Assembly (NCBI RefSeq): GCF_900176005.1
Contig: NZ_LT838272.1
Span: forward strand, 1,631,587 to 1,695,586
DNA from: Thermanaeromonas toyohensis ToBE
GTDB taxonomy: Bacteria > Bacillota > DSM-521 > Neomoorellales > Neomoorellaceae
Direction of reading: 5' to 3'
Length of the DNA: 64,000 nucleotides
The position numbers and the translations under genes are program-made. Below, in pieces: positions 19,415-59,935 of this stretch (position 1 is its first letter; each line of letters starts with the position of its first letter). The notes beneath the pieces are model-generated. The model was not told the origin of the DNA and searched no databases. It saw only the letters and a list, made by a program, of their open reading frames with translations.

Positions 19415-19468
19415 TTTACGGGGGCATTTATCCCCATCAGAAAACATTTCGTGAGGAGGGGTGTTTAT

Positions 19469-33253: not shown

Positions 33254-34618
33254 ATGGAAGAGGGGGTGAAGGTGTTGGATGCCGATGTTCTGATGGGGCT
33301 GGACCTCAGGCCTGCGGGGAGAGACGAGAGGCGCGGCAACTGCCCGGCCTGCGGCGACACCAAGGGGCACCTGTACCTGAACCTCAGGAAGGGTGTCTAC
33401 TACTGCCACAGGTGCGGTTTCTCGGGCAAGATAAGGGACGGGTTTTTGGGCTGTGACTGGCAGGGGATGCCGCCCCTGCCCGAGGAAAACGTCGCCCCAG
33501 TAGAAGTGCTCGACCGCGTCTACAGGCTGCTCTTCCAGCACCTTCCCCTGTCCCGGGAGCACCGGGAGCAGCTACTGAGGAGGGGCCTGCCGGAGGAGAA
33601 GCACCGGCAGTACGCGACGCTTCCCGCGGAGGGCAGGCGTGACGCGGTTCGTGCGGTGATAGAGGTTACAGACCCTTCGGGTGTGCCGGGCTTCTGCGTT
33701 GGTGACCGGGGGTGGTACCTGAGCGGCCCGCCTGGGCTGCTCATACCGGTCAAAAACTTTGAGGGGAAGATATGGGGCGTCCAGGTGCGCGTGGACGATC
33801 CCGGAGACGGCGGCAAGTACCGGTGGCTCTCTTCGAGGAAGGGGAGGGGGCCTAAAGCGAAGGTGCGGTACCACGTGGCGGCGGCCGGGGACATGCGCCG
33901 CGTGTGGGTCACGGAGGGGCCGCTGAAGGCCGACGTCGCGGCCCACTTTTTGGGTGAGACGGTCATTGCGGTTCCCGGCGTGAACACGTGGGCGAGCACC
34001 GGGCTGGTGGACGCTTTTAGAGGTAAGGAGGTTAAGGAAGCAATCATTGCGTATGATATGGACCTTCAGGCCAACGTCCACGTGGCGAAGGCCTCCCTGG
34101 CGCTGGGAAAAGAAATTTTTCGGGCGGGCCTTAAGGTCCGTTATGCCTGGTGGAACCCGCAATACAAAGGGCTGGATGACCTGCTCAATGCAGGCGGGTC
34201 GCCGGAGGTCATAAGCGTCAGGGAGTACAAGGACCGCTTGAGGGAATTATCCATGCGGGGAGGCCAGCAGGGCATGGTCTGGACGCACGGAGTTGGCTGG
34301 GTTGCTGCAAAGCCCGTACTCCAGCGGAGGACGAACAAGAAAACGGGCCAGACGCACGACATGGCTTATGTAGTAGTCTGGGTGCTAAATAAAGACAAAG
34401 AGAAGCTGGAAGCTATAACGCTAACCGCGTGGGGAAAGATGGCCCACGAGGCGGTGGCCCTGGAGAAGGGGCAGTTTATTACCTTTGAGGGAGTATGGCA
34501 CCAGATATCGGCATACGATGCCGCAGGGAACGTAATTCCTGCTGCCCAGTGCTTCTTGACGAAGATCGTAAGACTGCCAGAGGTCCCGGAGGTGGGAGGT
34601 AATGGAAACTTTAGGTGA
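33254..34618 (+). CDS. DnaG-like primase with C-terminal extension
   Basis: A 454-residue protein. An N-terminal CHC2-like zinc finger has Cys30, Cys33, Cys51 and Cys54 (NCPACGDTKGH ... YYCHRCGFSG). A Toprim-like domain follows: VWVTEGPLKADVAAHFLG near 217 (Glu of the EGxxK-type motif), then AIIAYDMDLQANVHV near 262. The final 120 residues (YVVVWVLNKDKEKLEAITL) look like an OB-type ssDNA-binding domain. Such proteins synthesise RNA primers; plasmid and phage versions serve the element's own replication. No helicase domain is visible. ATG 33254 follows GGGAG; TTG 33274 is an alternative start. Confidence 0.85.
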   Translation: MEEGVKVLDADVLMGLDLRPAGRDERRGNCPACGDTKGHLYLNLRKGVYYCHRCGFSGKIRDGFLGCDWQGMPPLPEENVAPVEVLDRVYRLLFQHLPLSREHREQLLRRGLPEEKHRQYATLPAEGRRDAVRAVIEVTDPSGVPGFCVGDRGWYLSGPPGLLIPVKNFEGKIWGVQVRVDDPGDGGKYRWLSSRKGRGPKAKVRYHVAAAGDMRRVWVTEGPLKADVAAHFLGETVIAVPGVNTWASTGLVDAFRGKEVKEAIIAYDMDLQANVHVAKASLALGKEIFRAGLKVRYAWWNPQYKGLDDLLNAGGSPEVISVREYKDRLRELSMRGGQQGMVWTHGVGWVAAKPVLQRRTNKKTGQTHDMAYVVVWVLNKDKEKLEAITLTAWGKMAHEAVALEKGQFITFEGVWHQISAYDAAGNVIPAAQCFLTKIVRLPEVPEVGGNGNFR

Positions 34619-34961
34619 ACAGATGCTGAGGGAGCGCCTAGACCCGAGGCCAGACCTGAAAAAGGACTCGTGGCTGTGGGAAGTGCTTCTGCACTATGTT
34701 TATGGTACGGGGCTATACTGGGTGCTGCACGGCTTCCGGTGTGCCGGCACGCTGCTGGTAGTCAAAGACGACGGTAGCGTAGTGATGCGGCCGCACATCG
34801 GTCCAGATGGCTGGGAAAACCTGGAACAGTATATGGACTTCCGGGAGCAACACCTGGTACCCCGGAAGGAGGAGCTTGAGAGAGTGCTGAGGGATTTGGC
34901 CACAGCACTGGCGGAGTACAGGAAGGAAAAGTTGAGGAATACTGTGCCTAAGGAATACTAA
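34602..34961 (+). CDS. Hypothetical protein
   Basis: A 119-residue product from ATG 34602, overlapping the primase gene by 17 nt (GGAGGTGGGAGG upstream). Mostly helical, Trp-rich core (SWLWEVLLHYVYGTGLYW) and a charged C-terminal helix. It may be an accessory subunit of the primase, judged by overlap only. Confidence 0.7.
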   Translation: METLGEQMLRERLDPRPDLKKDSWLWEVLLHYVYGTGLYWVLHGFRCAGTLLVVKDDGSVVMRPHIGPDGWENLEQYMDFREQHLVPRKEELERVLRDLATALAEYRKEKLRNTVPKEY

Positions 34962-34993
34962 AGCCTCCCGTATTGGGTGGCTTTTATATTTTA
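34960..34993 (+). terminator. Rho-independent terminator
   Basis: AAAGCCtCCC (34960-34969) pairs with GGGtGGCTTT (34975-34984), then TATATTTTA. It separates the primase unit from the clamp gene. Confidence 0.7.
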
Positions 34994-35019
34994 CCAAAAA
35001 TTTAGGGAGGGAATAACTA

Positions 35020-36168
35020 ATGCAAATAGTTTGTAAGACTCGTGAGCTCAGAGAGGCAGTGGGCTTCGCCAAAAAGATGCTGCCCAAAGCTACAACCCTG
35101 CCGGTGCTGGAAGGCATTATGCTGGAAGCGCAGGGCGGGGAGTTCAGAATAATGGCGCATGATTTGGAGTGCGGCGTGATTTTAAAAGTCAGCGGTGCCA
35201 GAGTAGAAAAAGAGGGCCGGGCACTTGTCCCCGGCAAAGCTTTTTCCCTTCTGGTGGAAAAGTTTACTGCAGAGGAGACCGCGATAGACGCCTCGGACGG
35301 GAACGTAACTATACAGTGCGGGAGCAGCAGGGCCGAACTGACAGGAATGGACCCGGACCTGTACCCCGAACTTCCTTCCCAGCAGGAGTACAGAGAGGTC
35401 GTTGTTGTTTTAGAAGAGCTCCTGCCCGCCCTGCGGGAGACTTTCAGCTTTACGAACCCCTCGGGGTGGGAAGCCTACGTGCGCTCCGTGCTGTGGGAGG
35501 TAGAAGAAGAGGACGTGCTGAACCTGGTCGCCACGGATACACACCGGTTGGTCGTGAGGAGGGTGCCGGGAGTGAAAACGGGAGGGACGCGCGGAGCCTG
35601 GCTGCTTCCCGTAGCTGGTCTGGCGAGGATGGCGGGCGTGCTCAGCGGTTCTACCGGGCATGCGGCCGTAAGGTTTTCCGAGAACTTTGCCCGGATTATC
35701 ACCGCTGGTGGGGCGTTCTACATGAGGCTGCTGTCAGGCTCCTACCCTCCGTACCGCCAGGTAATTCCACGAGAAGACGCCCCGGTTTCTGTAGTGGTCG
35801 ATGCTGGCGTCCTGCGCTCAGCCCTGGAGCGTGCAAGAGTTCTTAAGCAGGGCAGCAAGGACGACCCGGTGGTGATGATCGCGCCGGTAGCAGGGGCTGA
35901 CGTGTTGACGGTCAAGACCGTCAGGTGCGAGTACGGTGCGCTGGAGGAGGTGCTGGAAGCTGAAGTCCGGGGCGGAAGCGGGTTCCCGGTATATCTCAAC
36001 AGCAAGTACCTCCTCAGCGCCCTGAGGGGTGCCAGCGACAGGGTGGTGCTTGACATTTATGCACCGCTGAAGCCGGTCGTGGTGAGGCGTGCCGGCAGTG
36101 AGGACTACCTTGCCCTGGTGCTGCCCGTGAGGGTCCCGGAAACGGAGGCTGCTGAGAAATGCGCGTAG
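35020..36168 (+). CDS. dnaN: DNA polymerase III beta subunit (sliding clamp)
   Basis: A 382-residue beta clamp, normal length for the family, with three repeated domains: MQIVCKTRELREAVGFAKKM start, FRIMAHDLECGVILKV, TDTHRLVVRR near 175, SGSYPPYRQVIP near 240 and FPVYLNSKYLLSAL near 325. It forms a ring that tethers polymerase to DNA. It ends LPVRV followed by an additional 9-residue tail rather than the canonical end. A second, element-encoded clamp beside a primase suggests partly self-sufficient replication. ATG 35020 follows TAGGGAGGG; a terminator precedes it. Confidence 0.95.
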   Translation: MQIVCKTRELREAVGFAKKMLPKATTLPVLEGIMLEAQGGEFRIMAHDLECGVILKVSGARVEKEGRALVPGKAFSLLVEKFTAEETAIDASDGNVTIQCGSSRAELTGMDPDLYPELPSQQEYREVVVVLEELLPALRETFSFTNPSGWEAYVRSVLWEVEEEDVLNLVATDTHRLVVRRVPGVKTGGTRGAWLLPVAGLARMAGVLSGSTGHAAVRFSENFARIITAGGAFYMRLLSGSYPPYRQVIPREDAPVSVVVDAGVLRSALERARVLKQGSKDDPVVMIAPVAGADVLTVKTVRCEYGALEEVLEAEVRGGSGFPVYLNSKYLLSALRGASDRVVLDIYAPLKPVVVRRAGSEDYLALVLPVRVPETEAAEKCA

Positions 36169-36722
36169 GTGTGGACTTGTGCAATACGGTTGCGGACGTA
36201 AACGCCTGCATAAAGGCTGCCCTGGGGCTCCCGGAGGGTTATACCTTCCGGGAGTACAGCATGCGGGCAGTAGGTGTACGCGATAAGGTCGGGTGGTTCA
36301 GGAAACACCCTGAAGTATTTGTGGAGGCACTCCCACTGCCAGGAGCTGTGGAAACACTGGAAAAACTGGCGGCATGCGGGGTCGAGATATGGTATGTTAC
36401 TTCAAGGCCCGTGTGGGCCAGGGAAATAACCCGAGACTGGCTAAAGAAATGGAGTTTCCCCAAAGGGGAACTCATAATGGAAGCCGACAAGGCCCGGGTG
36501 TACGAAAACCTGGGCCTTGACCTTTTCTTTGAGGACGCACCGGGAGAAATAGAGCGGCTGGAGCGGGCGGGTGCCAGGGTTGTCGCCGTGGCACAGCCGT
36601 ACAACAGGGGTGCCTTCCGGTGGGATGACACAGGGAGAGGGGGAGACCTTCTTGGTGTACTCTTACACTGCGCTGGAATGCTTTCAGGCGTGCCCCAGGC
36701 GGTTTTACTACCGGTACGTTGA
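36159..36722 (+). CDS. HAD-superfamily 5'-nucleotidase-like protein (NT5C type)
   Basis: A 187-residue HAD hydrolase. Motif I GVDLCNTVAD (nucleophile Asp5), motif II YVTSRP near 88 and motif IV LFFEDAP near 125 match the 5'(3')-deoxyribonucleotidase group. It probably removes phosphate from nucleotides and adjusts the dNTP pool with the kinase at 32692. It overlaps dnaN by 10 nt, and its last 22 codons overlap the nuclease gene. Confidence 0.82.
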   Translation: MRVGVDLCNTVADVNACIKAALGLPEGYTFREYSMRAVGVRDKVGWFRKHPEVFVEALPLPGAVETLEKLAACGVEIWYVTSRPVWAREITRDWLKKWSFPKGELIMEADKARVYENLGLDLFFEDAPGEIERLERAGARVVAVAQPYNRGAFRWDDTGRGGDLLGVLLHCAGMLSGVPQAVLLPVR

Positions 36723-37698
36723 ACGGATACCGGAGCCACCTTCTGAGGCAGTAGAGTTCGGCAGCGCGGTTCACGCAGCCGTGGCGGCTGGGCTGAGCGG
36801 CCGTGACCCCGAAGAAGCGGTGAGGCAGATGCCGCTGAAGGTTGTTATCGGGGAAAAGCTGGAAGAGGCAATAGACCTTGCGATGCGGTTCCTCAGGAGG
36901 TATTCGCCCCGCGGGGTGTACCTGGTGGAAGAGAAAGTAAAAGGGGTCATAGCCGGTGAGGAGTTCGTCGGCCGGCTGGACCTGGTGGAGACCGGTGACA
37001 CCACGGGGATTATCACCATCACCGATTTTAAGACCGACTGGGACAAGTACATGCCCACCGAAAAGATGCAGCTGCCGCTGTACGCGTACCTTTTTTTGTC
37101 GATGATGAACGAGAAGCCCAGGCCGGTGCAGGCCAGGCTGTGGTTCCTGAGGCACGCGAGGGAACCCGTGGCGGAAGAAACGCTCACTCCGGAGCACATG
37201 TCCAGAGCGGTCCAATGGGCTGAAGGAATAATAAAAGAGATCAGGGACGCCCTGGAGCTTCCCGGGTGGATGGGTTTTGACCCGGTTCCGGGGTCGTGGT
37301 GCAAGACCTGCGGCTATTCCTTCAACTGCCTGGACATTGCCGAGCCGCAGGACATAGTGGAGGCGGGGGCCCTGGCCCTGAGGCTGGAACGCGCGCTGGA
37401 CGTGCTGAAGACCCGGCTTAAGGAGCACGTAAGCGAGCACGGACCGCTGCAGGTGAGCGACCAGTACTGGGGGGACTATTCTTACAGCATCTGGAAGTTC
37501 CCCGACATCCAGGCGTTCATGGAGCTGCTCGCCGGAGCGGGGGAAGACCCCTGGGACTACATTGAAGTGAACGGTTCCAAGCTCAAGAAGCTGCTGAAGG
37601 GCCCGCTGGGCGAGCGGATAAGGCAGATCGGGGAGGAGAAGCCCCGGCACTATTTCACCCACCGGGAGAAGCCCCCTGGGAGCAGGGAAGAGGCATAA
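36655..37698 (+). CDS. PD-(D/E)XK nuclease, Cas4/AddB type with Fe-S cysteines
   Basis: A 347-residue RecB-family nuclease. YSYTALECFQACPRR at the N-terminus, GRLDLVE near 106 (catalytic Asp), ITDFKTD near 124 (Asp-x-Lys) and QLPLYAYLF near 140 form the catalytic core. Cys13 plus WCKTCGYSFNC (Cys216, 219, 225) match the four-Cys arrangement holding a 4Fe-4S cluster in Cas4 and AddB. Such enzymes process DNA ends in recombination or replication; no Cas genes are near. GTG 36655 has GGGAGAGGGGGAG about 9 nt upstream; ATG 36625 would overlap the nucleotidase gene by 98 nt. Confidence 0.88.
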   Translation: MYSYTALECFQACPRRFYYRYVERIPEPPSEAVEFGSAVHAAVAAGLSGRDPEEAVRQMPLKVVIGEKLEEAIDLAMRFLRRYSPRGVYLVEEKVKGVIAGEEFVGRLDLVETGDTTGIITITDFKTDWDKYMPTEKMQLPLYAYLFLSMMNEKPRPVQARLWFLRHAREPVAEETLTPEHMSRAVQWAEGIIKEIRDALELPGWMGFDPVPGSWCKTCGYSFNCLDIAEPQDIVEAGALALRLERALDVLKTRLKEHVSEHGPLQVSDQYWGDYSYSIWKFPDIQAFMELLAGAGEDPWDYIEVNGSKLKKLLKGPLGERIRQIGEEKPRHYFTHREKPPGSREEA

Positions 37699-39133: not shown

Positions 39134-39177
39134 GGGAGGTGCGGGAGCGGACGTATTAACGTTCGCTCCGTACAATG
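39134..39177 (+). promoter_or_regulatory. SD-hairpin-start element 11
   Basis: SD GGGAGGTG at 39134-39141. Stem GGAGCGGACGT (39144-39154) with ACGTTCGCTCC (39159-39169), 11 bp with one wobble and an ATTA loop. ATG at 39175. Real spacing is 33 nt; looped-out spacing is 7 nt. Confidence 0.72.
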
Positions 39178-40125
39178 CGCAAGCTGAGCGCAAAAGAATG
39201 GTGGGAAGAGCTGCAGGGAATTTCGTATGTTCCCACGCAGCAAATTTGTGCGGCTTTGTCGCTGGCTCAGGTACTCGAGAAGCCGATACTGGTCGAGGGG
39301 CCGCCCGGGGCGGGCAAGACAAGCCTGGCAAAGGCCGCAGCCAGAGTGCTGGGGGCCAAGCTGGTGCGGCTCCAGTGTTATGAAGGGATAGACGCGTCTA
39401 GGGCTTTGTACGAATACAACTATGGTAAGCAGCTGCTCTACCTGAACGCCCTGCGGGACCGGGTGTCGCAGGTCCTTAACGGCACAAAGAGCTTGGCAGA
39501 AGCTGTAGACGTGCTTGACCGCGAGGCCCCTTTCTGGGGAGAGGAGTTTCTTGTGCGGCGGCCTGTTCTGGAAGCACTGGCACCGGTGGACGGCAAGCCC
39601 CGTGTGCTGCTCGTGGACGAAGTTGACCGGTCAGACAGGGAGTTCGAAGCCCTGCTGCTGGAAGCTCTGTCCGACTGGGCAGTATCGATACCCGAGTTTG
39701 GAACGATTGTTGCCCGTGAAAAACCCCTGGTGCTGCTAACGTCTAACAGGACCCGGGACCTGTCGGATGCGTTGCGCCGCAGGTGCCTCTATCTTTGGCT
39801 CGATCTTCCTGACAGAGAGAGGGAAACGAAAATTATTAGGGCACAAGTGCCGGGGGCCAGCGAGCGCTTTGCCCGGAAAGTAGCTGAATTCCTGGCGGAA
39901 TACAGGAAGGCTTCCCCGAAGCACGTGCCCTCTGTAGCTGAGGCTATAGAGCTCGCCGCCGCCCTTCTGGCCACGTCGGGCGAAGAATTCGGTGCCAGTG
40001 AGATAGAAGCCGCGCTGGCGGTGTTTGCTAAGAACAAAGACGATGTGCGGCTGGGTGTCCGTGCCGCCGAGAAGCTGTTTAAGGACAGCGGCGAAAGAGA
40101 AGAAAGGGGTGCGGAGAGTGCTTAA
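39175..40125 (+). CDS. MoxR-type AAA+ ATPase
   Basis: A 316-residue AAA+ protein. Walker A EGPPGAGKTS at residues 41-50, Walker B VLLVDEVDRSD near 143, sensor 1 LTSNRTRDLSDALRRR near 185 including the arginine finger region, and a C-terminal lid. MoxR ATPases act with VWA-domain partners as chaperones or metal-centre or complex-assembly factors. The VWA gene overlaps its 3' end by 8 nt. It is the first gene of a three-gene operon and lies behind an SD-hairpin element. Confidence 0.92.
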   Translation: MRKLSAKEWWEELQGISYVPTQQICAALSLAQVLEKPILVEGPPGAGKTSLAKAAARVLGAKLVRLQCYEGIDASRALYEYNYGKQLLYLNALRDRVSQVLNGTKSLAEAVDVLDREAPFWGEEFLVRRPVLEALAPVDGKPRVLLVDEVDRSDREFEALLLEALSDWAVSIPEFGTIVAREKPLVLLTSNRTRDLSDALRRRCLYLWLDLPDRERETKIIRAQVPGASERFARKVAEFLAEYRKASPKHVPSVAEAIELAAALLATSGEEFGASEIEAALAVFAKNKDDVRLGVRAAEKLFKDSGEREERGAESA

Positions 40126-41629
40126 AAACGATACCCTGTTGCGGTCGATTATAGGTTTTGGCGAGTATGCCAGGAAAAAGGGGCTTAGGGTGAGTACTGC
40201 TGAGGTAAGTGATGCTGTAGCCGGTCTGGCTGCCTTAGGGCCGATGTCTCTTACGGGGTTGCGAGAGGCTCTCCAGCTCTGCATGGTAAAGAGTGTCGGG
40301 GACTTTGAGAAGTTTAACGAGGCATTTGACGAGTATTTTCTGGGGCTCAGACCTGACGTAGTCGCCACTGTTGCCGTTATGTCCTTGGAAGGGCAAGGGA
40401 GGCGTGCGGGCGGGCGGCGGAAGGAACCGCCGCCGGGCCGCACGGAACAGAAAGCGGTTGAGGAGGATGGCGCCAGCAATAAAAGTTTTGAGGCCGTGGG
40501 TACGCCTGTCGGGGCGGTTCCGGCGTGGGCATCAGCGCTAGCGTCGGGTAAAGGTGGCTCCATTCCGGAATCGCTCAAGCTTTACCTTGCGGGCCAGGTG
40601 TTTTCGGCCGCATCTGAGCTGGTGCGTGACCCGTTAAGCGATGCAGATCGCAGGGATATTGTGGTAGCCGTAAGCAGGTTGGCTGTAGAGAAGCTGTTGT
40701 GCGAAAGTGACCTCCCGGCGGTAGAGGACGCCCTACGGGGGTTTATAAAGCTGGCCTCGGCGGTAGAAAAGGCGCGGTGTAAGTATAAGACCCGCAAGAA
40801 CAGCTGGTCGGATTTTAGTGCATTGGGCCGAACTCCTTTTAATGGTTTGGCTACCGAACTGGTGGGCATCCCACCTGACCTGCTTGATGCGCGGTTGGAG
40901 CGGCTTGATAGGGCACGGCTTGCCCTGCTAACGGAGGAGATTAGCCGAGCTGCCGCCGCCCTCAAGCCGCTCATCGGCGGGCTGCCCGGGCCGGCGAACC
41001 GGAGGCGGGTACTGGATTACAGGAAGACACTGCGTGCTAGCCTGGCTACGTTTGGCGAGCCTTTCAGGCTCTGCCGTTCGGCTAGACGCCGGCGGCTGCG
41101 AAGGCTGGTGACGGTCTGCGACGTGTCCGGGTCGGTCAAAGAAGTCACCGGGCTTTTTCTGGCATTTATGTATGGCCTTCACCAGGCGTTCGGTGGGCGG
41201 GTGAGGCACTTCGTGTTCGTGTCTGAGGTCGACGAAGTGACCGGATATTTTTCTCTGCCCACCTACGGGGAGTGCTTTGACAGGGTTGTCAGTGCAGCCG
41301 CCGTAGACTACAGGGGCTACTCCAACTACGGGAAGATGCTGAAATCTCTGTGGGGGAGGTACCGGGACGCGTTCGACCACGAGACGGTAGTGCTGTTTCT
41401 TGGGGACGCGCGGACGAACAGGTACGACCCGGAGGTCGGCATTCTGGAGGAGATTTCTGCTGTGGTCAAGAGGACCTTCTTTCTCAACCCCGAAGACCCG
41501 AGAGAGTGGTATACAGGAGATTCGGCGGTTGCCGTGTACAGGGCTGCGGCTGAGTTTGTGGACATCAGCAGGTTCCGGAAGCTCCTGGAATTTATCAGCA
41601 GACTACCGGGGGTGGTGGTGGCGTGCTGA
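40118..41629 (+). CDS. VWA-domain (CoxE-like) protein
   Basis: A 503-residue protein. The C-terminal third is a CoxE-like von Willebrand A domain: VTVCDVSGSVKEV with MIDAS residues Asp335, Ser337 and Ser339, the conserved YRGYSNYG loop near 400 and VVLFLGDARTNRYDP near 425. The N-terminal 300 residues are helical with a Gly/Arg/Pro-rich linker near 95-120. VWA partners of MoxR present substrates or scaffold complexes. GTG 40118 (GAAAGGGGTG upstream) overlaps the MoxR gene, and its stop overlaps the next start. Confidence 0.9.
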   Translation: MLKNDTLLRSIIGFGEYARKKGLRVSTAEVSDAVAGLAALGPMSLTGLREALQLCMVKSVGDFEKFNEAFDEYFLGLRPDVVATVAVMSLEGQGRRAGGRRKEPPPGRTEQKAVEEDGASNKSFEAVGTPVGAVPAWASALASGKGGSIPESLKLYLAGQVFSAASELVRDPLSDADRRDIVVAVSRLAVEKLLCESDLPAVEDALRGFIKLASAVEKARCKYKTRKNSWSDFSALGRTPFNGLATELVGIPPDLLDARLERLDRARLALLTEEISRAAAALKPLIGGLPGPANRRRVLDYRKTLRASLATFGEPFRLCRSARRRRLRRLVTVCDVSGSVKEVTGLFLAFMYGLHQAFGGRVRHFVFVSEVDEVTGYFSLPTYGECFDRVVSAAAVDYRGYSNYGKMLKSLWGRYRDAFDHETVVLFLGDARTNRYDPEVGILEEISAVVKRTFFLNPEDPREWYTGDSAVAVYRAAAEFVDISRFRKLLEFISRLPGVVVAC

Positions 41630-43341
41630 CCAAGGGCGACAGCCCGGCGGTCAGGGAGGCCTTTCGGCTCGCCCTCGAAAGGGCCGGATTCGGTCCGGCA
41701 AGGCCGGAAAGCCTGAGCCGCATCCGGGTGAGCAGCCAGAAAAACATCGTGCTGGACGACAAGCTGCTGGTGGGGCGTGAACTGCTGGAACGCTGTGGCG
41801 TTGGATCCGCAGAAGGACTGCGGGAACTGCTTTCGCGCCTCGCCCCCACTGCGGCGGCATGGTTGAAGCGGGTTCTGGATGGTGCGCCGGGGCAGGTTGC
41901 AGTAATGCCGTTGACTGAGCTGGACTTTCTGGGGTACGAAGCTTCAGGAGAGGAGAGACCTCTGGGGGCGTTTGTGGAGGCATTTAAAAAGCACCACGAA
42001 TGGTATTCGTCCGAGCTGCGCTGCCTGCTGGAGGCACGGTTTGCCGGCATTGTTCCTGAAAGAAGTTCCGGGGCCGTTTCCAGGGCGCTCTGCGAGGTGT
42101 CTCGGGAGGAGTATGTGGCTGTGCGTACCGTGGGGGGAGCATGGGTTTTCCGGTGTCCATGCGGTGTGTCAGCCGTTGTTTCCTCTCAGGGGCACGTCCA
42201 GGTTGACAAGCGCGGCGTAGCCCAGTTGGAACAGGACAAGGCCACTATAGTAAACCTCGCTAAGTCCGTATGGGCAGAAAAGCTCAGCAGGGATGGCATT
42301 GTAGACAGCGCACAGAGGTGTTTAGAAAGAGTTCGGGAAAGCTTAGCAGGTTACTTTTATCCGGCAGCTGTTGCGAAGAAGGTGTCTGAGCTGGAGGCGC
42401 TGGTCCGGAACCTGAGAGCGGGCAACTTAGTTGTACGGGGTGAAGTTCTTGCTGTTCCCGGGCCTCAGCCGCCTGTGCGTGTATATGAAGTGAAAGATTA
42501 CCTTTGTTCGACTCTGGAAGAGATACTGAATGCGCCCAAAGTTCCCGCTGGTGAAATACAAGGGGTTCTGCGTCAGGCGTGGGAAAACTCAGGAAAGGAG
42601 TTATGGGAGGAGGTGCGTTCCAGGTGGGAAGCCCTCCCGGAGCTCTGCAAAATTATGCCTCTGGTGAAGAACGCGTACGGGGAGGCTGCGGCTTTCGCGG
42701 AGCAGTGGGAGAAAGGAAACCTTGCGCTCCAAGACGGGGCGGTCTTAATGGGCGGCAGGCGGATCGCGCCGCCTTACGGAGACAATGCTCTGGCGGAACT
42801 GAAGCAGTTGAAGCAGCGGTTTGAATTCCAGGCTTCACAGGCTGTATCACCACAGGCCTCGGATATAATAGAAGCAGCCCTCAGGTTTTTTATGCGGCAC
42901 CCGAACCAGGTTGGCGCTACCACTGCAGCTGCCATACTCACGGGCAGCAGGGCGCAAAAGATAGTCAAGGAGGGCTACACTAAGCTGCCGGAATATGGCC
43001 TGTTAAAAAGCAGGTGTTCCCAGCGGAAGGTTGTGGAGGTAATTTCGTGGCTTACGCGGCAGGGGCTTCTTCAGGTTACTTATAAGGGCTACTATGGGCT
43101 TCCCGTGCTGAAGGTGTCGGGGCCGGTAGCCGAACTGCTTAAGGAAAGCGGTGCGGTACTTACCACGACATATGTGGAGGAAGATGCGGTTCCTAAGGCT
43201 GCGTCAAGGAAGGACTGGGAGGTACTGGCGGAAATGGCTGGGCAGGGTGTGTTTGCGGCCCGCGCAGCACTGGCAACTGCGGCGGCCTTGTGGCCGTCAG
43301 GAAAGGCTGCGAGGCTGTGGAAGGAAGCTTCAGCGGAGTAG
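41623..43341 (+). CDS. Large protein with C-terminal RQC/winged-helix domain
   Basis: A 572-residue product from GTG 41623, overlapping the VWA gene by 7 nt. Residues about 415-505 (NQVGATTAAAILTGSRAQKI, KLPEYGLLKSRC, VVEVISWLTRQGLLQVTYKG) match an RQC-type winged helix, the DNA-binding part of RecQ helicases, but no helicase domain is present. The N-terminal 400 residues include RCPCGVSAVVSSQG and coiled-coil stretches. It may bring the MoxR-VWA pair to DNA. A MoxR-VWA-RQC operon is not one I recognise as characterised. Confidence 0.75.
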   Translation: MLTKGDSPAVREAFRLALERAGFGPARPESLSRIRVSSQKNIVLDDKLLVGRELLERCGVGSAEGLRELLSRLAPTAAAWLKRVLDGAPGQVAVMPLTELDFLGYEASGEERPLGAFVEAFKKHHEWYSSELRCLLEARFAGIVPERSSGAVSRALCEVSREEYVAVRTVGGAWVFRCPCGVSAVVSSQGHVQVDKRGVAQLEQDKATIVNLAKSVWAEKLSRDGIVDSAQRCLERVRESLAGYFYPAAVAKKVSELEALVRNLRAGNLVVRGEVLAVPGPQPPVRVYEVKDYLCSTLEEILNAPKVPAGEIQGVLRQAWENSGKELWEEVRSRWEALPELCKIMPLVKNAYGEAAAFAEQWEKGNLALQDGAVLMGGRRIAPPYGDNALAELKQLKQRFEFQASQAVSPQASDIIEAALRFFMRHPNQVGATTAAAILTGSRAQKIVKEGYTKLPEYGLLKSRCSQRKVVEVISWLTRQGLLQVTYKGYYGLPVLKVSGPVAELLKESGAVLTTTYVEEDAVPKAASRKDWEVLAEMAGQGVFAARAALATAAALWPSGKAARLWKEASAE

Positions 43342-43349
43342 CGGTGGTT

Positions 43350-43385
43350 GGCCCCGGGCCGTTTGTGCCCGGGGCCTTTTTAATT
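43350..43385 (+). terminator. Rho-independent terminator
   Basis: GGCCCCGGGC (43350-43359) pairs with GCCCGGGGCC (43367-43376), followed by TTTTTAATTTT. It ends the MoxR-VWA-RQC operon. Confidence 0.85.
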
Positions 43386-43489: not shown

Positions 43490-45118
43490 ATGTCCCGCGA
43501 CGGCACCAGTAAGGAAGACGCATCCTTATACTGGCTGGCGCTCCTGTCTGTTGTGTTAGGGCTCATTTTGGTATATTCGGCCTTTTTGAAGCTGGCGGGG
43601 GCGCCGGGAGACGTGATAACTGCCGGCCAGTCGTTCCTTTTGGCGCGGCTTGAAGGCCGGCCGTGGGCGCCCTACGAAATCAGGGCTGCAGTATACTTTG
43701 GTATGCTGATGCTCGTAGTGATGGCGGTCGTTACTGCGGTGGGCCCGCGCGTGCTGGCATTTTGGAAGCAGCAGAAAAGGCAGTCGCTACTCTTGAAACG
43801 CTACGCATCCCACCAGGGCTCCGCGGAATGGGGCAGCCTGGGAGAAGTGAAAAAGTTGCTGGGTAACGACGGTGTGATAATCGGGGGGCAGAAGGGGCTG
43901 GGCGGCTGGAAAGCAGTGCGCCTTTCTGCACGGTATTCGTTCGAGCACGTAGCGGTGATCGGTCCTACAGGTTGCGGTAAGAGTACGTGCTTCTTCATAC
44001 CCAACCTTCTGGAACTGGCGCCGGGCGCATCAGCTGTGGTGACGGACCCGAAAGGAGAGTTGGAAGAGGTAACGGCTCCAGTCCTGCGAAAGAGGGGCTG
44101 GGATGTGTATACGTTTGCTCCCACGGAACCGGCTATCTCGTTGGGTTACGACCCGCTGCGCTGCGCCAGGGATGAAGTCGAAATCAGCGACATTGCTGAT
44201 ATTATACTGAGGAACGGTTACGATCCGGAGGGACGCGGTACTGATACCCAATGGATAAACTTTAGCGCTCCGCTGTTCGAGGCAGTACTGTATGCCGCAA
44301 GGGAACTATTGGGCATCCGTGCTACGGTCAGGGAAGCCGTTACCATAGTGAGCGAGATGGACGAGGAGAAGCGTGCAGAGATTTTCAAGCAGGTGGGAGG
44401 CAGGGCTCTCAGCCGCTACTTAGCGTACCTGCAGAGCATCCAGTCTCCGGAGACCGCGGGTTCCATACGAACCATCCTCACTGCTTCGGTGCGGGTGTTC
44501 GACCGGCCGGATGTCGCTGAAGTGGCGTGTAAAAGCAGCATCCTTGACTTCACGGTTCTCAGGGAAAAGCCTTCTGTCCTTTTTGTGCGGATACCGGAGC
44601 GCAGGGCGCACCTGTTGAAGCCGCTGACGGCGACCTTTTTCTGGCAGCTGCTCGAACACATTGCGGACGCACCGGGGAGGCCTGTATACTTCTTCTTAGA
44701 CGAATTCCCAAACATCGGAAAGATACCGGGCTTTGCGAACATGGCGGCCACGCTGAGGTCCCGGGGAATAAGCCTGTGCATCGGGCTTCAGGGGGTTGAG
44801 CAGCTGGCCCGGGAGTATTCCGAGCAGGAACAGAAGGACATTTTGAACAACCTTAAGACCAAGATATACTTTCCCGGGGCATCGGGGGAGACGGGCCAGT
44901 ATGCGAGCACGCTTGCGGGATATGCTACCGCCAGGGACAGGTACGGCGATACTGGCCAGAGGGTGGAACTTTTCAGCGCAGCCGAACTCCGGACGATACC
45001 AGAAGGGAAGATACTGGTGATGTCCCGCAACTTCCAGCCACTGCTCCTTGACGCCCTTCACTACTCGAGGCTGGGAGCAGTGAAAACGGGGGTGAGGGCG
45101 CCTTTGCGCTTCCGGTAG
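43490..45118 (+). CDS. VirD4/TraG-type coupling protein
   Basis: A 542-residue type IV secretion coupling ATPase. Two membrane segments lie at about residues 11-32 and 63-84; Walker A GPTGCGKST at 158-166; ADPKGELEE-like TDPKGELEE near 185; Walker B FFLDEFPNIG near 401. In conjugation it docks the relaxosome and pumps DNA to the secretion channel. No relaxase or other T4SS gene is in the window, so the rest of the system would lie outside it. ATG 43490 follows AAGGAGGGGG. It is the best evidence that positions 1-45 kb are conjugative. Confidence 0.92.
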   Translation: MSRDGTSKEDASLYWLALLSVVLGLILVYSAFLKLAGAPGDVITAGQSFLLARLEGRPWAPYEIRAAVYFGMLMLVVMAVVTAVGPRVLAFWKQQKRQSLLLKRYASHQGSAEWGSLGEVKKLLGNDGVIIGGQKGLGGWKAVRLSARYSFEHVAVIGPTGCGKSTCFFIPNLLELAPGASAVVTDPKGELEEVTAPVLRKRGWDVYTFAPTEPAISLGYDPLRCARDEVEISDIADIILRNGYDPEGRGTDTQWINFSAPLFEAVLYAARELLGIRATVREAVTIVSEMDEEKRAEIFKQVGGRALSRYLAYLQSIQSPETAGSIRTILTASVRVFDRPDVAEVACKSSILDFTVLREKPSVLFVRIPERRAHLLKPLTATFFWQLLEHIADAPGRPVYFFLDEFPNIGKIPGFANMAATLRSRGISLCIGLQGVEQLAREYSEQEQKDILNNLKTKIYFPGASGETGQYASTLAGYATARDRYGDTGQRVELFSAAELRTIPEGKILVMSRNFQPLLLDALHYSRLGAVKTGVRAPLRFR

Positions 45119-49113: not shown

Positions 49114-49386
49114 GTGACAGAGGTGGTCCTGCGCATACCGGACGAAATACGGGAGGCCCTGGGGCCCCGCCGCGATCCGGCCAGGGAAATAATGAAGAGG
49201 CTCGCGGTCTCCCTCTACGCCGAGAGGAAGATATCCCTGGGCAAAGCGGTGGAGCTTTCGGGCACCAGTTATTCTTCCTTCCTGGAAGCCCTTGCCGACT
49301 TTGGGGTGGAGCTGGACTACGACGAGGAGGACCTGGTGAGCGACTTAGAAACCCTGGAGGGGTTGAGGTCCGTTGGTGGTGAGTGA
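49114..49386 (+). CDS. UPF0175-family antitoxin
   Basis: A 90-residue protein with the UPF0175 pattern VVLRIPDEIREAL ... REIMKRLAVSLYAERKISLGKAVELSG. The family encodes ribbon-helix/HTH-type DNA-binding antitoxins usually paired with a DUF3368 PIN toxin, as here. GTG 49114 follows GAGGTGG. It overlaps the PIN gene by 14 nt. Confidence 0.85.
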   Translation: MTEVVLRIPDEIREALGPRRDPAREIMKRLAVSLYAERKISLGKAVELSGTSYSSFLEALADFGVELDYDEEDLVSDLETLEGLRSVGGE

Positions 49387-49624
49387 CGCTCCCGTTCTCA
49401 TCGGCCTCAGCCGGATAGGATTCTTGTGGCTACTGAAAAGGCTGTGGGGTACGGTGGCGATACCGGAAGCCGTTTACCAGGAAGTGATGACGGGCTCCCC
49501 GGGGAGCGAGGAAGTGGTCAGGGCGGTCGAAGCGGGCTGGTTCCGGGTCGCAAAGATCCGGAAGGCAGCGTTAGAATTAATTCGGCTCATCGAAAGGGCC
49601 GGGAGTGAGCAAGAAGCGGCGTGA
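49373..49624 (+). pseudogene. DUF3368 PIN-domain toxin, C-terminally truncated
   Basis: An 83-residue frame starting VVSDAPVLIGLSRIGFLWLL, the usual PIN N-terminus with the first catalytic Asp, then AIPEAVYQEVM. Intact members have about 150-160 residues and continue past 'GEAEAI' with the remaining acidic residues; here the frame ends GSEQEAA at 49624. A short EARRLGP-like stretch follows in another frame, suggesting decay. The toxin is probably inactive. Confidence 0.72.
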
Positions 49625-49721
49625 TAGAGGCGCGAAGGCTAGGTCCGGCCCTTAAATATTGATCCAAAATGCTGGAAAAGATCAATGCTTTCAGGATATA
49701 ATAGTGGCGGGAGGGATAGTG

Positions 49722-49940
49722 GTGGCTACGGTTGAGAGAATCCTTCACGAGATCAGGCGTCTCAGCAAGGAGGAGAAGGAAATACTGCTGAATGCTTTAG
49801 AGCGCGAAAGGGCGGAAGACGAAGCTGTCGAGAAATTCGAAAAGGCTGCTGGTTCCTGGGCTGACTTTGACGCCGATAGCTTTGTGGCTGAAGTCTATGC
49901 GCGGCGGCACGGAGAGGGAAGGGCGGTACCCGGGTGGTAG
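49722..49940 (+). CDS. VapB-like antitoxin
   Basis: A 72-residue product from GTG 49722 (GGGAGGG 6 nt upstream). A helical N-terminus (ERILHEIRRLSKEEKEILLN) and acidic tail (WADFDADSFVAEVYARR) fit an antitoxin of a PIN toxin. It overlaps the toxin gene by 7 nt. Confidence 0.75.
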   Translation: MATVERILHEIRRLSKEEKEILLNALERERAEDEAVEKFEKAAGSWADFDADSFVAEVYARRHGEGRAVPGW

Positions 49941-50347
49941 TCCATGCAAAATACCTAGTGGACACCGACTGGGCAGTATACTATCTCCGCGGCAGAGAAC
50001 CTTATGTAACCAGGTTGAAGGTCTACCGTGAAGAACGGCTGAGCGTCAGCGTAGTTTCCCTGGCCGAGCTCTATGAAGGCGTGTTCCGGGCACCAGACCA
50101 GCAGGACAAAGAGAAAACGCTGAACGACTTTCTGGCGGGGTTGGTTGTGGTTGACGTAACCCGAGACGTAGCCCGCACCTTCGGGCGGCTCCGGGCAGAA
50201 CTGCGAAGTAAGGGAATAACAGTAGCCGACATGGACCTTTTGATCGGGAGTACAGCAGTTTAATATGGGCTGGTCATCCTGACGGACAACCGCCAGCATT
50301 ATGAGAAAATACCAGGGATCCGGCTGGTCGAAGTAGTGGGGGAATAA
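49934..50347 (+). pseudogene. VapC PIN-domain toxin with in-frame TAA
   Basis: The frame from GTG 49934 encodes YLVDTDWAVYYLRG (first Asp), SVVSLAELYEGVF (Glu) and ITVADMDLLIGSTAV, then TAA at 50261-50263. The same frame continues YGLVILTDNRQHYEKIPG to TAA 50345, which is the expected PIN end with the TDN motif. One nonsense change therefore removes the last about 28 residues, including an active-site Asp. The antitoxin is intact. Confidence 0.8.
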
Positions 50348-55308: not shown

Positions 55309-56391
55309 TTATTCCCTGTTGCTCGCCGTTTTGGGCTCTCCCGTAGGGGTAAAATATTTGCGCGAAAAGGCCAGAGCCACATTGACCAGGCCGATCATTA
55401 CCGGTACCTCAATTAAGGGGCCGATTACCGCGGCAAAGGCCTGGCCGGAGTTGATGCCGAAGACGGCCACGGCTACGGCTATGGCCAGCTCAAAGTTGTT
55501 GCTGGCTGCTGTAAAGGAGAGGGTAGTGGTCTGGGCATAATTTATTCCTAACCGCATGCTCAAGAAAAAGGATATCAAGAACATCACTACAAAGTAGGCG
55601 ATAAGGGGTATGGCTACCCGCACGACATCCATGGGAAGGCTAACAATATAATTGCCCTTCAAGGAGAACATGACCACAATAGTGAAGAGCAAAGCTATTA
55701 GAGCCAAGGGGCTTACTTTAGGCACAAAAACTTTTTCGTACCACTCTTTGCCCTTAGCAGGTAAAAGTATCCTCCGGGTAAGAAAGCCGGCCACAAAGGG
55801 GATGCCAAGATAAATAGCTACACTGGTGGCTACTTCTCCAATGGACACCTGCACCCGCATACCCTTAAGCCCTATGAGGGTAGGCAATACGGTAATGAAG
55901 ATATAAGCATATATAGAGTAAAACACGACCTGGAAGATGGAATTGAGGGCCACCAGGGCGGCCGCATATTCACTGTCGCCATTGGCTAGGCTGTTCCATA
56001 CAATGACCATGGCGATGCAGCGGGCAAGGCCTATAAGAATAAGCCCTACCATATACTCAGGATAGTTCCGGAGAAAGATTATGGCCAGGATGAACATCAG
56101 AATAGGGCCGATTACCCAGTTTTGGATGAGGGAGAGGGCTAACACCTTGGAGTTCTTAAAAACTTTGCCCATCTCCTCATATTTTACTTTGGCTAAGGGA
56201 GGGTACATCATAACAATCAGGCCTATGGCTATGGGGATGGAAGTGGTTCCAATAGAAAGCTTATCCAGGGCCGTAGCCACCCCTGGCACAAAATAACCCA
56301 AGCCTACACCGAAAGCCATGGCCAGGAAAATCCATAGAGTAAGGAAGCGGTCCAGCAAGGAAAGGCGTGCTGCAGCTTGGCCGTTGGGCAT
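55309..56391 (-). CDS. acr3: ACR3 arsenite efflux permease
   Basis: A 360-residue membrane protein with ten predicted membrane segments, the normal length for ACR3 (bile acid:Na+ symporter superfamily). The conserved [13 protein letters not shown] carries catalytic Cys125, and [17 protein letters not shown] and [10 protein letters not shown] are diagnostic. It exports As(III), possibly Sb(III). The ArsR gene 110-130 nt upstream on the same strand probably controls it. Confidence 0.97.
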
Positions 56392-56500
56392 AACCAGTTT
56401 TGACCTCCCTTTCTAGGTTACTATTTTGGCTGCTGGTGCTTTTCTAGATAGCACGCTGCTTTTCATATATTGCTTTTTCACTCGGATTACAGTTAGTTTT

Positions 56501-56872
56501 TTATTCTTGTCTTCTTACCGGCCGGCAATTAACTTTGGGGTTTTGCTTTAGCTTTTCAACTTGGAGCTTTTCCTGTTCCAACCCCTTTTTGTCCTGTAAA
56601 GGAGAAAACAGATAGGAGGAAAAATCTTGCAGAAACCTCTCCAGGAACTCCCTTCTCAAGGAATAAAATACCCACTGGCCTATCTTTTCTTCCTCTACCA
56701 GGCCAGCCTCTTTAAGAACACGCAGATGCTGGGAGATAGCTGGCTGAGAAACATTGAAGATTTCCTCCAGCTCGCATACACAGAACTCCTGCTCGGCCAA
56801 AAGGGCGACGATTTTTAAGCGCAGGCTTTGGCCCAGGGCCTTAAATATTTTTTCAGCTTCTTTTATTTCCAA
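56501..56872 (-). CDS. arsR: ArsR-family repressor (acr3 unit)
   Basis: A 123-residue winged-helix repressor. The metal site motif EFCVCELEEIF (Cys-x-Cys) and recognition helix SQPAISQHLRVLKEAG are intact. TTG 56872 is chosen because AGGAGGTGA lies 8 nt upstream; the ATG at 56929 would sit at the predicted transcription start and has no SD. As(III) binding releases it from the operator, derepressing acr3. The C-terminal tail is long and charged, with one Cys. Confidence 0.92.
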   Translation of the reverse strand: MEIKEAEKIFKALGQSLRLKIVALLAEQEFCVCELEEIFNVSQPAISQHLRVLKEAGLVEEEKIGQWVFYSLRREFLERFLQDFSSYLFSPLQDKKGLEQEKLQVEKLKQNPKVNCRPVRRQE

Positions 56873-56937
56873 GCATTGCTTCACCTCCTGAACATTTGGT
56901 CCTATTTGCAGTTGGTTGCGCATAATCATTTGCTTAT

Positions 56938-56966
56938 ATATTATTTTACCTTTGAATTTCTGTCAA
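56938..56966 (-). promoter_or_regulatory. Consensus promoter for arsR-acr3
   Basis: On the minus strand TTGACA (56966-56961), a 17-bp spacer and TAATAT (56943-56938). Transcription would start near 56931. Confidence 0.8.
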
Positions 56967-56994
56967 GGAATTGTTGGGGATGGTTACAAAAAGG

Positions 56995-57043
56995 TTGACA
57001 CCCGAGGGTGTTTGTTTTAAAATTTAAATTGCAATATAGCAAT
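56995..57043 (+). promoter_or_regulatory. Promoter and operator for the + strand ars operon
   Basis: TTGACA (56995-57000), 17-bp spacer, TAAAAT (57018-57023). Just downstream ATTGCaatataGCAAT (57028-57043) is a perfect 5-bp inverted repeat followed by ATATAgtaaTATA, suitable as an ArsR operator. It is divergent from the acr3 promoter 30 nt away. Confidence 0.8.
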
Positions 57044-57126
57044 ATAGTAATATAAAGAGCCAATTCTATTGCGTTACCGTGTATTTCACCGTATTTCAAA
57101 TTACACCGCTTAAGGAGAGTGAAGGC

Positions 57127-57513
57127 GTGGAACGGCTAATCGAATATCTCAAAGTCCTGGCAGATCCCACGCGCATGAAAATAATTAAATTCCTTTTAGA
57201 GCGCGACATGTACGTTTGTGAATTGGTGGCGGTGATGGATATCGCCCAACCCACTGTATCCCAGCATCTAAGGAGATTAAAAGCGGTGGGACTGGCGGAG
57301 GAAAAGAAAGAAGGCCAGCGCGTCCGTTACCGGGTGAATAAGGAGGTGTTGGCTGAATGCCAGAGGGAACTAGAGATATTTTTGGCTACTCCCATCAAAG
57401 ATATCCCCCAAATGAAAGAAGAGTGGGAGCGCTTTGAAGCCCTCGTAGCCAGCGGGAAAGTATTGAGTTCTTGTCCACCGCCTATAGAAGATACCCATAA
57501 CGACTTAGCTTAG
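57127..57513 (+). CDS. ArsR-family repressor (permease unit)
   Basis: A 128-residue ArsR protein with MYVCELVAVMDIAQPTVSQHL: only one Cys in the alpha-3 helix (VCE in place of CVC), so its metal site differs from the divergent ArsR. A C-terminal SSCPPP could supply another Cys. GTG 57127 is chosen (AAGGAGAG 9 nt upstream). It heads the operon with the permease. Confidence 0.9.
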   Translation: MERLIEYLKVLADPTRMKIIKFLLERDMYVCELVAVMDIAQPTVSQHLRRLKAVGLAEEKKEGQRVRYRVNKEVLAECQRELEIFLATPIKDIPQMKEEWERFEALVASGKVLSSCPPPIEDTHNDLA

Positions 57514-57566
57514 TTCAAATTTGGTACAGCTTTTTTAAAGCTAATTTAAAAGGAGATGTTCTTCCT

Positions 57567-58739
57567 ATGAGCAAGCAAATTAAGCTGCTCTTAATTTTAG
57601 CCGTATTTCTAGCAGCCTACTTTCTCCCCTTCCACCATCCCAGGATGCAGAGCGCCATCCTAGAAGCTTTTTACATGCTACAGGAATATGCTAGGGAGCA
57701 CGTGCTCTTCTGCCTGGTACCTGCCCTCTTTATCGCGGGGGCTATGAGCAACTTCCTTTCTTCCCAGGCCGTAATGAAGTATCTGGGCCCAGACAGCCCC
57801 AAGGTGACGGCCTACGGAGTAGGAGCGGTTTCCGGGGCCATACTGGCTGTCTGTTCCTGCACTGTACTGCCTCTATTTATGGGTATTTACAAGCGGGGAG
57901 CGGGCTTAGGACCAGCCATAGCTTTCCTTTACTCCGGCCCAGCCATCAATGTACTGGCCATTATCCTTTCGGCCCGGGTTCTGGGCTGGCAAATAGGGCT
58001 GGCCAGGGCCCTGGGAGCGGTCCTGTTTTCGGTAGTTATAGGCCTTATTATGGCCCTTCTCTTTAGAGGAGAAGAGCAGGAGAGGACCAAAGGATTGCTC
58101 ATGCCTGAAGGTGAAGGCGAACCAAGGCGGACTTTAGGCCAGACTACGCTGTACTTCCTGGTCCTGGTGTTGATACTCGTCTTTGCCGCTTGGGGTAAGC
58201 CTGCGGAGAAGGTAGGTTTCTGGTATGCCGTGTACAGCGTAAAGTGGTATCTGGTGATCGGCCTGCTCATAGCCCTGGCCCTGATATTGCGGGCCTGGTT
58301 TACGCGGGAAGAATTAGCCGCCTGGGTGGATTCCACCTGGGATTTCAGCATTAAGATTTTACCCCTTCTCTTTGGAGGGGTACTGGTGGCCGGATTTCTC
58401 ATGGGCAGACCCGGCGTGGATACAGGGATAATCCCGGCCAAGTATATTTCCATGGTGGTGGGGGGCAACGGGCTTTTAGCCAACTTTACTGCCTCCCTTG
58501 TAGGAGCGTTTATGTACTTTGCCACTCTAACGGAAGTACCCATTGTACAGGGGCTTCTGGGCTCTGGCATGGGCCAGGGGCCTGCTCTAGCCCTGCTTCT
58601 TGCAGGGCCGGCTTTAAGTTTGCCCAATATGCTGGTTATCAACAGCGTCCTGGGCTTTAAGAAAACCTTCGCTTATGTTTCTCTGGTAGTCATAATGGCC
58701 ACCCTAACGGGCATGGTATTTGGAGCGCTGGTCGGCTAA
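57567..58739 (+). CDS. ArsP/DUF318-type permease
   Basis: A 390-residue protein with about ten membrane segments. AVCSCTVLPLFMGIYKRGAG is the Cys-containing signature of the UPF0718/DUF318 permeases, and a second half-repeat (FTASLVGAFMYFATLTEVPI) follows. ArsP members export trivalent organoarsenicals; others have unknown substrates. ATG 57567 foll. AAAGGAG. It is followed by redox proteins, so a thiol-reactive substrate is likely. Confidence 0.88.
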   Translation: MSKQIKLLLILAVFLAAYFLPFHHPRMQSAILEAFYMLQEYAREHVLFCLVPALFIAGAMSNFLSSQAVMKYLGPDSPKVTAYGVGAVSGAILAVCSCTVLPLFMGIYKRGAGLGPAIAFLYSGPAINVLAIILSARVLGWQIGLARALGAVLFSVVIGLIMALLFRGEEQERTKGLLMPEGEGEPRRTLGQTTLYFLVLVLILVFAAWGKPAEKVGFWYAVYSVKWYLVIGLLIALALILRAWFTREELAAWVDSTWDFSIKILPLLFGGVLVAGFLMGRPGVDTGIIPAKYISMVVGGNGLLANFTASLVGAFMYFATLTEVPIVQGLLGSGMGQGPALALLLAGPALSLPNMLVINSVLGFKKTFAYVSLVVIMATLTGMVFGALVG

Positions 58740-58777
58740 AGGAGTAAAAAATTTGCTTGGGGGAGGTCAGAGGATTT

Positions 58778-59503
58778 ATGTCCGTGTCCTTGAGGGAATT
58801 AGCGCAAAAGATGGTGGACATTTTGGGATTAAAAACTCAACCTGTAGCGGTTAAGTTTTGTGAAAGGACGTATGGGGATCATTTAGAGCAGAGGAAGATG
58901 CGCTACTGCCAGGCTTTGATGCTGGCCAGGCACGGAGAAGAGGTTGTTTTGACGGCGGAAAACATCGCCTGTCCGGCAGCCGCGGCAGCCTTCGGCTTCA
59001 AACCTTTGCCGGAAAAGATTGCCGAAGGTGACATGCTAGCTAACCTGGGACTGTTCGCCCAGCCCGCTGCAGCCAAGTATACCATGTCCCTTATGCCGAG
59101 ACTAGAGAGGGGCAAATATCAGGCTGTGCGCCTGCTCCCCCTTTCCCAGGCAGAAGGTGTGGTGCCGGATGTAGTGGTGGTAGAAGGGCTACCGGAACAG
59201 CTTATGTGGATTATCCTGGCTTCTGTCTTTAATACTGGTGGCAGGCTAAACTTTGAAACCGGGGTCTTCCAGGCCACCTGTGTTGACGCCACGGTAGTTC
59301 CCTTTATGAAACAAAAGGTGAATGCCTGTTTTGGCTGCTATGGGTGCCGGGAGGCGAGCGACATTGACCTATCAGAAACCGTTATGGGGTTTCCTGGGGG
59401 TATACTCGAGGAGGTGGTAGATTCTTTAAGCAGACTGGCGGCCAAAGCTCTGCCTAGAGCCAGAGGTAAGTCCGTGTATAAGGGTTTCGTAGGGCAACAA
59501 TAG
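58778..59503 (+). CDS. DUF169 protein
   Basis: A 241-residue DUF169 protein: QPVAVKFCE, RYCQALMLARHGEEVVLTAE, CPAAAAAFGF and CFGCYGCREASDI. The many conserved Cys suggest a metal or Fe-S site. Function unknown; the family is common in strict anaerobes. ATG 58778 follows GGGGGAGG. It sits in the ArsR-permease operon. Confidence 0.88.
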   Translation: MSVSLRELAQKMVDILGLKTQPVAVKFCERTYGDHLEQRKMRYCQALMLARHGEEVVLTAENIACPAAAAAFGFKPLPEKIAEGDMLANLGLFAQPAAAKYTMSLMPRLERGKYQAVRLLPLSQAEGVVPDVVVVEGLPEQLMWIILASVFNTGGRLNFETGVFQATCVDATVVPFMKQKVNACFGCYGCREASDIDLSETVMGFPGGILEEVVDSLSRLAAKALPRARGKSVYKGFVGQQ

Positions 59504-59542
59504 TAAAATAGTAAAAATGATACAGGGAAGGGAGCGTTACTT

Positions 59543-59935
59543 ATGGGTCCCGGTGAAATGAATCTCGAACAGGTATTGCAGAAGATGCAGGAGAAATTGG
59601 GCGGCGATCCCTATCCTATGCGCTTGCTCAGCCAGCTGGTACCTCAGGGAGTAATGGACCAGGCCAGGTCAAGCCAATTTGTTGAAACCTTGCCTGCTAT
59701 TCCCATAAAGTATAAAATGTTGATGTACGTAACTGCTGCGGCAGCCTTGGGTTCGGAGTATTGCACTAAGGTTTATGCCCAGCGGGCCATGAGGGAAGGG
59801 GCTACCGTCCAGGAGATTATGGAGGCTGTCTTGATTGCTCGCTTTGTCAGCGCTTCTACCGTATTTGCTACCGCCATTCCTACCATGGAAATGCTTTTAA
59901 ATTCAACTCCCAAAGAAGGAGGGGACGTTAAATAA
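59543..59935 (+). CDS. Carboxymuconolactone decarboxylase/AhpD-like protein
   Basis: A 130-residue AhpD-fold protein. IPIKYKMLMYVTAAAALGSE followed by YCTKVYAQRAMREGATVQEI is the family core. The usual active-site CxxC is reduced to a single Cys (SEYCTKV), so peroxidase-type disulfide chemistry is uncertain. The start codon is ATG 59543 (AAGGGAG upstream); its stop overlaps the next start. Confidence 0.88.
   Translation: MGPGEMNLEQVLQKMQEKLGGDPYPMRLLSQLVPQGVMDQARSSQFVETLPAIPIKYKMLMYVTAAAALGSEYCTKVYAQRAMREGATVQEIMEAVLIARFVSASTVFATAIPTMEMLLNSTPKEGGDVK

Follow-up and report, generated by a model that had tools for sequence, protein, structure and literature searches.

In Thermanaeromonas toyohensis ToBE, a stretch of 64,000 nucleotides (contig NZ_LT838272.1, positions 1,631,587 to 1,695,586 of the forward strand; hereafter, the window) contains three genes that overlap in series at window positions 39175-43341. 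They encode a MoxR-type AAA+ ATPase, a CoxE-type VWA protein and a third protein that carries an RQC winged-helix domain. The coordinates and reading frames given in an initial annotation, made from the sequence alone, are correct. We tentatively propose that the three products may form a DNA-addressed remodelling machine serving the mobile element in which their genes probably reside. The features of the locus are as follows:

39175..40125, + strand: MoxR-type AAA+ ATPase, CoxD/MadB-like, 316 amino acids (Pfam and NCBIfam profiles)
40118..41629, + strand: CoxE-type VWA protein, about 503 amino acids, GTG start at 40118 (PF05762)
40997..41578, + strand: VWA_CoxE domain plus a conserved motif ahead of it, the proposed finger (residues 296-489)
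41623..43341, + strand: third protein, 572 amino acids, GTG start at 41623, without a full-length relative in the searched sets
42853..43146, + strand: RQC winged-helix domain of the third protein, residues about 411-508 (Pfam, alignment and fold)
43350..43376, + strand: intrinsic terminator closing the operon, an all-GC hairpin of 10 pairs followed by TTTTT
43490..45118, + strand: VirD4/TraG-type coupling ATPase (PF02534, 3.6e-44)

The overlaps measure 8 and 7 nucleotides, an arrangement like that of translationally coupled operons. Codon-position GC differs little among the three genes, and the first 400 codons of the third share this composition, so that gene looks coding throughout. The conjugation ATPase that had been described as adjoining the operon is indeed its neighbor; however, virD4 is probably a transcription unit apart, since the hairpin and T-run at 43350-43376 stand between them.

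The MoxR ATPase and the VWA protein

Identification of the first two products as an AAA+ MoxR protein and a CoxE-like VWA protein is borne out by Pfam profiles and conserved motifs. The ATPase matches Pfam AAA (6e-12) and AAA_5 (9.5e-11) as well as the NCBIfam MadB ATPase (1e-80). MadB is its closest named family, yet the score of 271 bits lies below the equivalog cut-off of 475 bits. The operon likewise falls short of the MadC equivalog, at 136 of 600 bits. Alignment with 14 relatives indicates that Walker A (GPPGAGKT), Walker B (LLVDEVD), sensor 1 (TSN) and the arginines (RRR) are all kept. The longest branch in a tree of MoxR relatives is that of this ATPase, which is not grouped with the copies found in the host family.

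The VWA protein matches PF05762 VWA_CoxE (1e-31). Its metal-ion-dependent adhesion site (MIDAS), made of D337-x-S339-x-S341 and D432, is invariant among the aligned relatives, and the DVSGS and GDAR motifs are conserved (the residue numbering used here counts two residues ahead of the GTG at 40118). A structure model built with 19 relatives has NorD of NorQD (9qhe, TMt 0.55) and the human MDN1 MIDAS among its best PDB matches. The model also contains a four-helical N-terminal domain (helices 2-22, 29-42, 47-58 and 62-79, mostly at a pLDDT of 78-92), a feature named for CoxE-type VWA proteins (PMC7159879). The C-terminus lies near the point where ordinary CoxE proteins stop, with no effector domain beyond the VWA domain. 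Judged by these motifs, the pair consists of intact CoxD/CoxE-type proteins in which the residues predicted for ATP hydrolysis and metal adhesion are kept.

Two other connections were considered and rejected. One was that the MadB/MadC likeness might denote a phage-defence system; the relatives observed adjoin methanol dehydrogenase or CO-dehydrogenase-type genes instead. The other was a near relationship between the ATPase of the operon and a MoxR protein encoded on a Geobacillus plasmid, which did not hold.

The third protein and its RQC domain

PF09382 RQC (4e-11, residues 413-515) is the sole Pfam domain above cut-off in the third protein. Alignment with RecQ proteins reveals GS, YG and further signature positions in common along the length of the domain. 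The fold is modelled with confidence (pLDDT 91-97 over residues 411-480, and 77-86 over residues 481-510), and the nine best Foldseek matches in the PDB are all RecQ or WRN structures, the best being 4q48, 1oyw and 3aaf; a complex of the WRN RQC domain with DNA is among the nine (TMt 0.62). For the chain as a whole, Foldseek E-values reach no better than 0.011, a modest level that reflects the poor quality of most of the model. The RQC call thus survived structural comparison, with the reservation that the AlphaFold alignment contained RecQ RQC domains, so that the fold model cannot count as a wholly separate line of evidence from the sequence call.

Residues 405-510 bear a net charge of +7. 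RecQ and WRN share the RQC winged helix with the third protein, which differs from them in that Pfam and motif checks detected no Walker A/P-loop, no helicase domain and no four-Cys zinc module. The score against the RQC-minor-1 family NF041107 is 27 bits, below its cut-off of 115. The initial annotation had described a 572-residue protein that ended in an RQC domain without a helicase: the domain and the lack of a helicase stand, while about 64 residues with predicted helices come after the domain. Further upstream, residues 236-265 weakly resemble the DUF6744 signature (30 residues; profile score 8.5 bits, E 0.057). This likeness is no more than suggestive, a higher score having been reached by one of about 400 proteins that is unrelated. 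No similarity to DUF3150 is detectable.

The composition of the trio raises the possibility of a MoxR-vWA ternary conflict system, in which the RQC domain would let the third protein sense invading DNA, and the pair would set the threshold for the response or drive it. Such systems have been traced to CoxDE pairs that gained a third component (PMC7159879), which makes this explanation conceivable, and mobile elements often carry defence genes. The third components described are, however, VMAP, iSTAND, FtsH or beta-propeller proteins (PMC7159879). None of these was found in the Pfam scan of the third protein, and the VWA protein lacks a fused effector and aligns with ordinary CoxE proteins. Furthermore, a PADLOC search returned nothing beyond generic P-loop matches and a match to DpdF over its RQC stretch, and no variable set of related operons was found. 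On balance we consider a defence role unlikely. Of the two options initially offered, a DNA-directed machine or a defence machine, the former can be fairly inferred; the latter is one rival among several, and nothing specific points to it.

Distribution, genomic setting and related modules

Relatives of the VWA protein are present in 111 of 398 genomes of the phylum, and a MoxR relative is adjacent in the loci inspected. Outside the phylum, relatives of the pair are linked with metabolic genes, such as those for methanol dehydrogenase or CO-dehydrogenase-type enzymes. No protein related to the third one over its full length was present in the 101 relatives, the 398 phylum genomes, the 72,556 plasmids or the viral contigs searched, the largest genome collection not having been scanned with it; all matches are limited to the RQC domain and fall mostly in proteins of RecQ size. 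In the 14 larger MoxR-VWA neighborhoods that were read, no RQC protein was seen, and the flanking genes were ordinary chromosomal genes in look. Co-conservation of the third gene with the pair, as initially expected, is therefore not borne out: in the data searched the pair is widespread without it, an outcome that the initial annotation itself had named as a refutation of its proposal.

This distribution is relevant to another explanation, namely that the operon contains an ordinary CoxD/CoxE pair, acquired by the element, that matures a metal cofactor or a complex of a host enzyme, with the RQC protein as a passenger or as regulator of the operon. The frequency of VWA relatives beside MoxR relatives and the retention of all conserved residues are in its favor. 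With CoxD/CoxE and NorQ/NorD the operon shares a homologous ATPase and VWA protein in adjacent genes, intact motifs and a NorD-like VWA fold; it differs from them in the RQC-encoding third gene, in the divergent MoxR and in the lack of a recognised metalloenzyme client nearby. Indeed, no recognisable client enzyme was detected among the element genes that were read, with the proviso that not all are annotated and that a client might be encoded in trans. The long MoxR branch, apart from the copies of the host family, also speaks against this explanation, as does the 7-nucleotide overlap of the third gene with the second. We regard an ordinary pair as improbable.

The mobile setting that the initial annotation had assumed is supported by a genome-unique pair of repeats, an integrase, a primase-like gene, dnaN and virD4. 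Exactly two copies of a 23-bp direct repeat are present in the genome (1611082-1611104 and 1699406-1699428). The right copy is about 3.8 kb beyond the end of the window, and a gene for a tyrosine integrase lies 1.6 kb inside the left copy. The repeats probably bound an integrated element of 88 kb that contains the operon. An empty attachment site was not found in family members or relatives, and VirD4, used as a probe for sister elements, gave no match at E < 1e-40 in 100 relatives. The gene content of the putative element includes ParB, a protein resembling a recombination directionality factor, an SMC-type ATPase, a DUF3854/TOPRIM primase-like protein, DnaN, a Cas4-like nuclease and VirD4; the primase-like protein, DnaN, ParB and VirD4 are of plasmid type. 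Several of these lie in one block upstream of the operon:

33254..37698, + strand: DUF3854/TOPRIM primase-like protein, DnaN, NT5C-like protein and PD-(D/E)XK Cas4-like nuclease (profile matches)

A second MoxR-VWA module is found to the left of the window (L071:9817-19887). It comprises DUF6744, bpMoxR (2e-57) and, three kilobases further on, a VWA gene, and it also holds proteins of 242 and 887 residues without a Pfam match. The 887-residue protein was considered as a relative of the third protein of the operon, and no similarity was found.

Modules of comparable composition exist on other mobile elements. In pCAR1 the order is MoxR-DUF3150-VWA, near genes for a single-strand binding protein, RecT, an exonuclease, MobH and TraD, and the genes of this module are conserved in R478, Rts1, SXT and R391 (PMC2642839). 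DUF3150 is present on 1,118 plasmids of the plasmid collection, 969 of them typed as conjugative; no paper in the literature searched mentions it by name. Large Firmicutes plasmids of Alicyclobacillus and Brevibacillus bear the combination DUF6744-MoxR-VWA, which in Alicyclobacillus follows directly on DnaN; on a Geobacillus plasmid, genes for single-strand binding protein, primase, MoxR and VWA stand in consecutive order. As far as gene content can tell, mobile elements repeatedly own a MoxR-VWA pair with a third protein near DNA-processing genes, and no function for such modules was found in the literature.

The trio conforms to this pattern; its pair is a different one, and its third protein is predicted to bear a DNA-binding domain. 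Like the module of pCAR1, R478, Rts1, SXT and R391, it combines MoxR, VWA and a third protein beside recombination and transfer genes on a mobile element; in contrast, the third proteins have no detectable similarity, and the MoxR of those elements is CbbQ/NorQ-like whereas that of the operon is CoxD-like. The DUF6744-bpMoxR-VWA modules also unite an ATPase, a VWA protein and a third protein on plasmid-type elements. Their MoxR proteins belong, however, to a different clade, and DUF6744 and the third protein are alike only over the weak 30-residue stretch.

The leader of the moxR gene contains a predicted structure:

39139..39173, + strand: 5' leader hairpin, between the Shine-Dalgarno sequence GGGAGG (39134-39139) and the MoxR start codon (RNA folding)

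Its folding energy is -25.1 kcal/mol (z -4.17), with equally good folds in 0 of 200 shuffles. According to the folding model, the hairpin would draw the Shine-Dalgarno sequence and the start codon close together. The same layout is shared by five genes of the element, with start codons at window positions 10586, 11761, 16841, 28275 and 39175: a strong Shine-Dalgarno sequence about 31-38 nucleotides upstream, a GC-rich hairpin whose loop often has TTAA, and a start codon without a nearby Shine-Dalgarno sequence. By a fixed definition, the layout is found in 5 of 112 candidate genes of the element, as against 2 of 420 sampled from elsewhere in the genome, figures to be read with the knowledge that the definition was set after the first examples had been seen. 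These leaders are possibly structure-bridged translation starts.

Additional loci of interest were detected in and around the element. The protein encoded at window positions 19451-20797 belongs to the Gp3-like recombination directionality factor family (PF18897, 3e-47), though the integrase found is of the tyrosine type. An arsenic-resistance-like cluster, recognised by eye, occupies positions 55309-60177 in the right half of the putative element and is probably cargo. Two small gene pairs at 49114-50263 resemble PIN-type toxin-antitoxin modules. Finally, a Type IIG restriction-methylation-like protein is encoded to the left of the repeats (L070:9741-12701).

A proposed function for the operon

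The reading that we put forward, tentatively and as having somewhat less than an even chance of being right, is that the operon encodes a remodelling machine of the CoxDE/NorQD type, addressed to DNA and in the service of the mobile element itself. On the model of NorQD (PMC13036017, PMC9976466), the pore of a MoxR hexamer would grip the VWA finger, and ATP would drive a twist of the VWA/MIDAS head against the client bound to it. The third protein would serve as the dedicated partner: its RQC winged helix may bind duplex or branched DNA, while the rest of the chain may be held by the VWA protein in a complex. The ring could then act on a nucleoprotein complex, by loading, removing or remodelling it, while the element is being replicated, repaired or transferred.

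Several lines of evidence are consistent with a DNA-aimed remodeller: the gene overlaps and the operon's own terminator, the retention of catalytic and adhesion residues, the NorD/MDN1-like model of the VWA protein, the RQC domain with its positive charge, and the neighboring replication genes. The second MoxR-VWA module on the same element and the modules present on other mobile elements point in the same direction. Three considerations weigh against it. In the data searched, the MoxR-VWA-RQC trio is confined to one genome, and no conservation backs it as a unit. Residues 1-410 of the third protein are poorly modelled and have no assigned domain. Lastly, a gene placed in an operon may be a client, a regulator or a passenger.

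The first of these roles deserves separate mention. If the third protein were the client, the pair would assemble or activate it as a DNA-binding factor for replication, partition or transfer. A dedicated client complex is typical of MoxR-VWA pairs (PMC3893208, PMC9976466), and the neighbors of the operon are replication and transfer genes. By sequence, this alternative is indistinguishable from the DNA-addressed machine; no related initiator or transfer protein was found, and we consider it quite unlikely.

A broader speculation, to which we attach a low probability, is that mobile elements hold a recurrent three-part MoxR-VWA class in which the third subunit links the motor to the DNA of the element. 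The RQC protein would be a fast-evolving member, perhaps one in which a distant relative of DUF6744 has been joined to an RQC domain. The class as a whole would help to maintain or transfer plasmids and integrative elements.

Work on MoxR-VWA pairs has mostly concerned their role as chaperones of metalloenzymes, of membrane complexes or of virion parts. The pair described here is of a type already known, and its RQC-bearing partner is, by homology searches, so far unique in the data covered. If the proposal of a DNA-addressed machine is true, a dedicated DNA-binding partner would extend this type of motor to nucleoprotein remodelling, in a manner comparable to McrBC, which has a similar finger-in-pore assembly (PMC13036017). 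It would likewise direct attention to the unexplained MoxR-VWA modules found in the backbone of many conjugative plasmids, resistance plasmids included.
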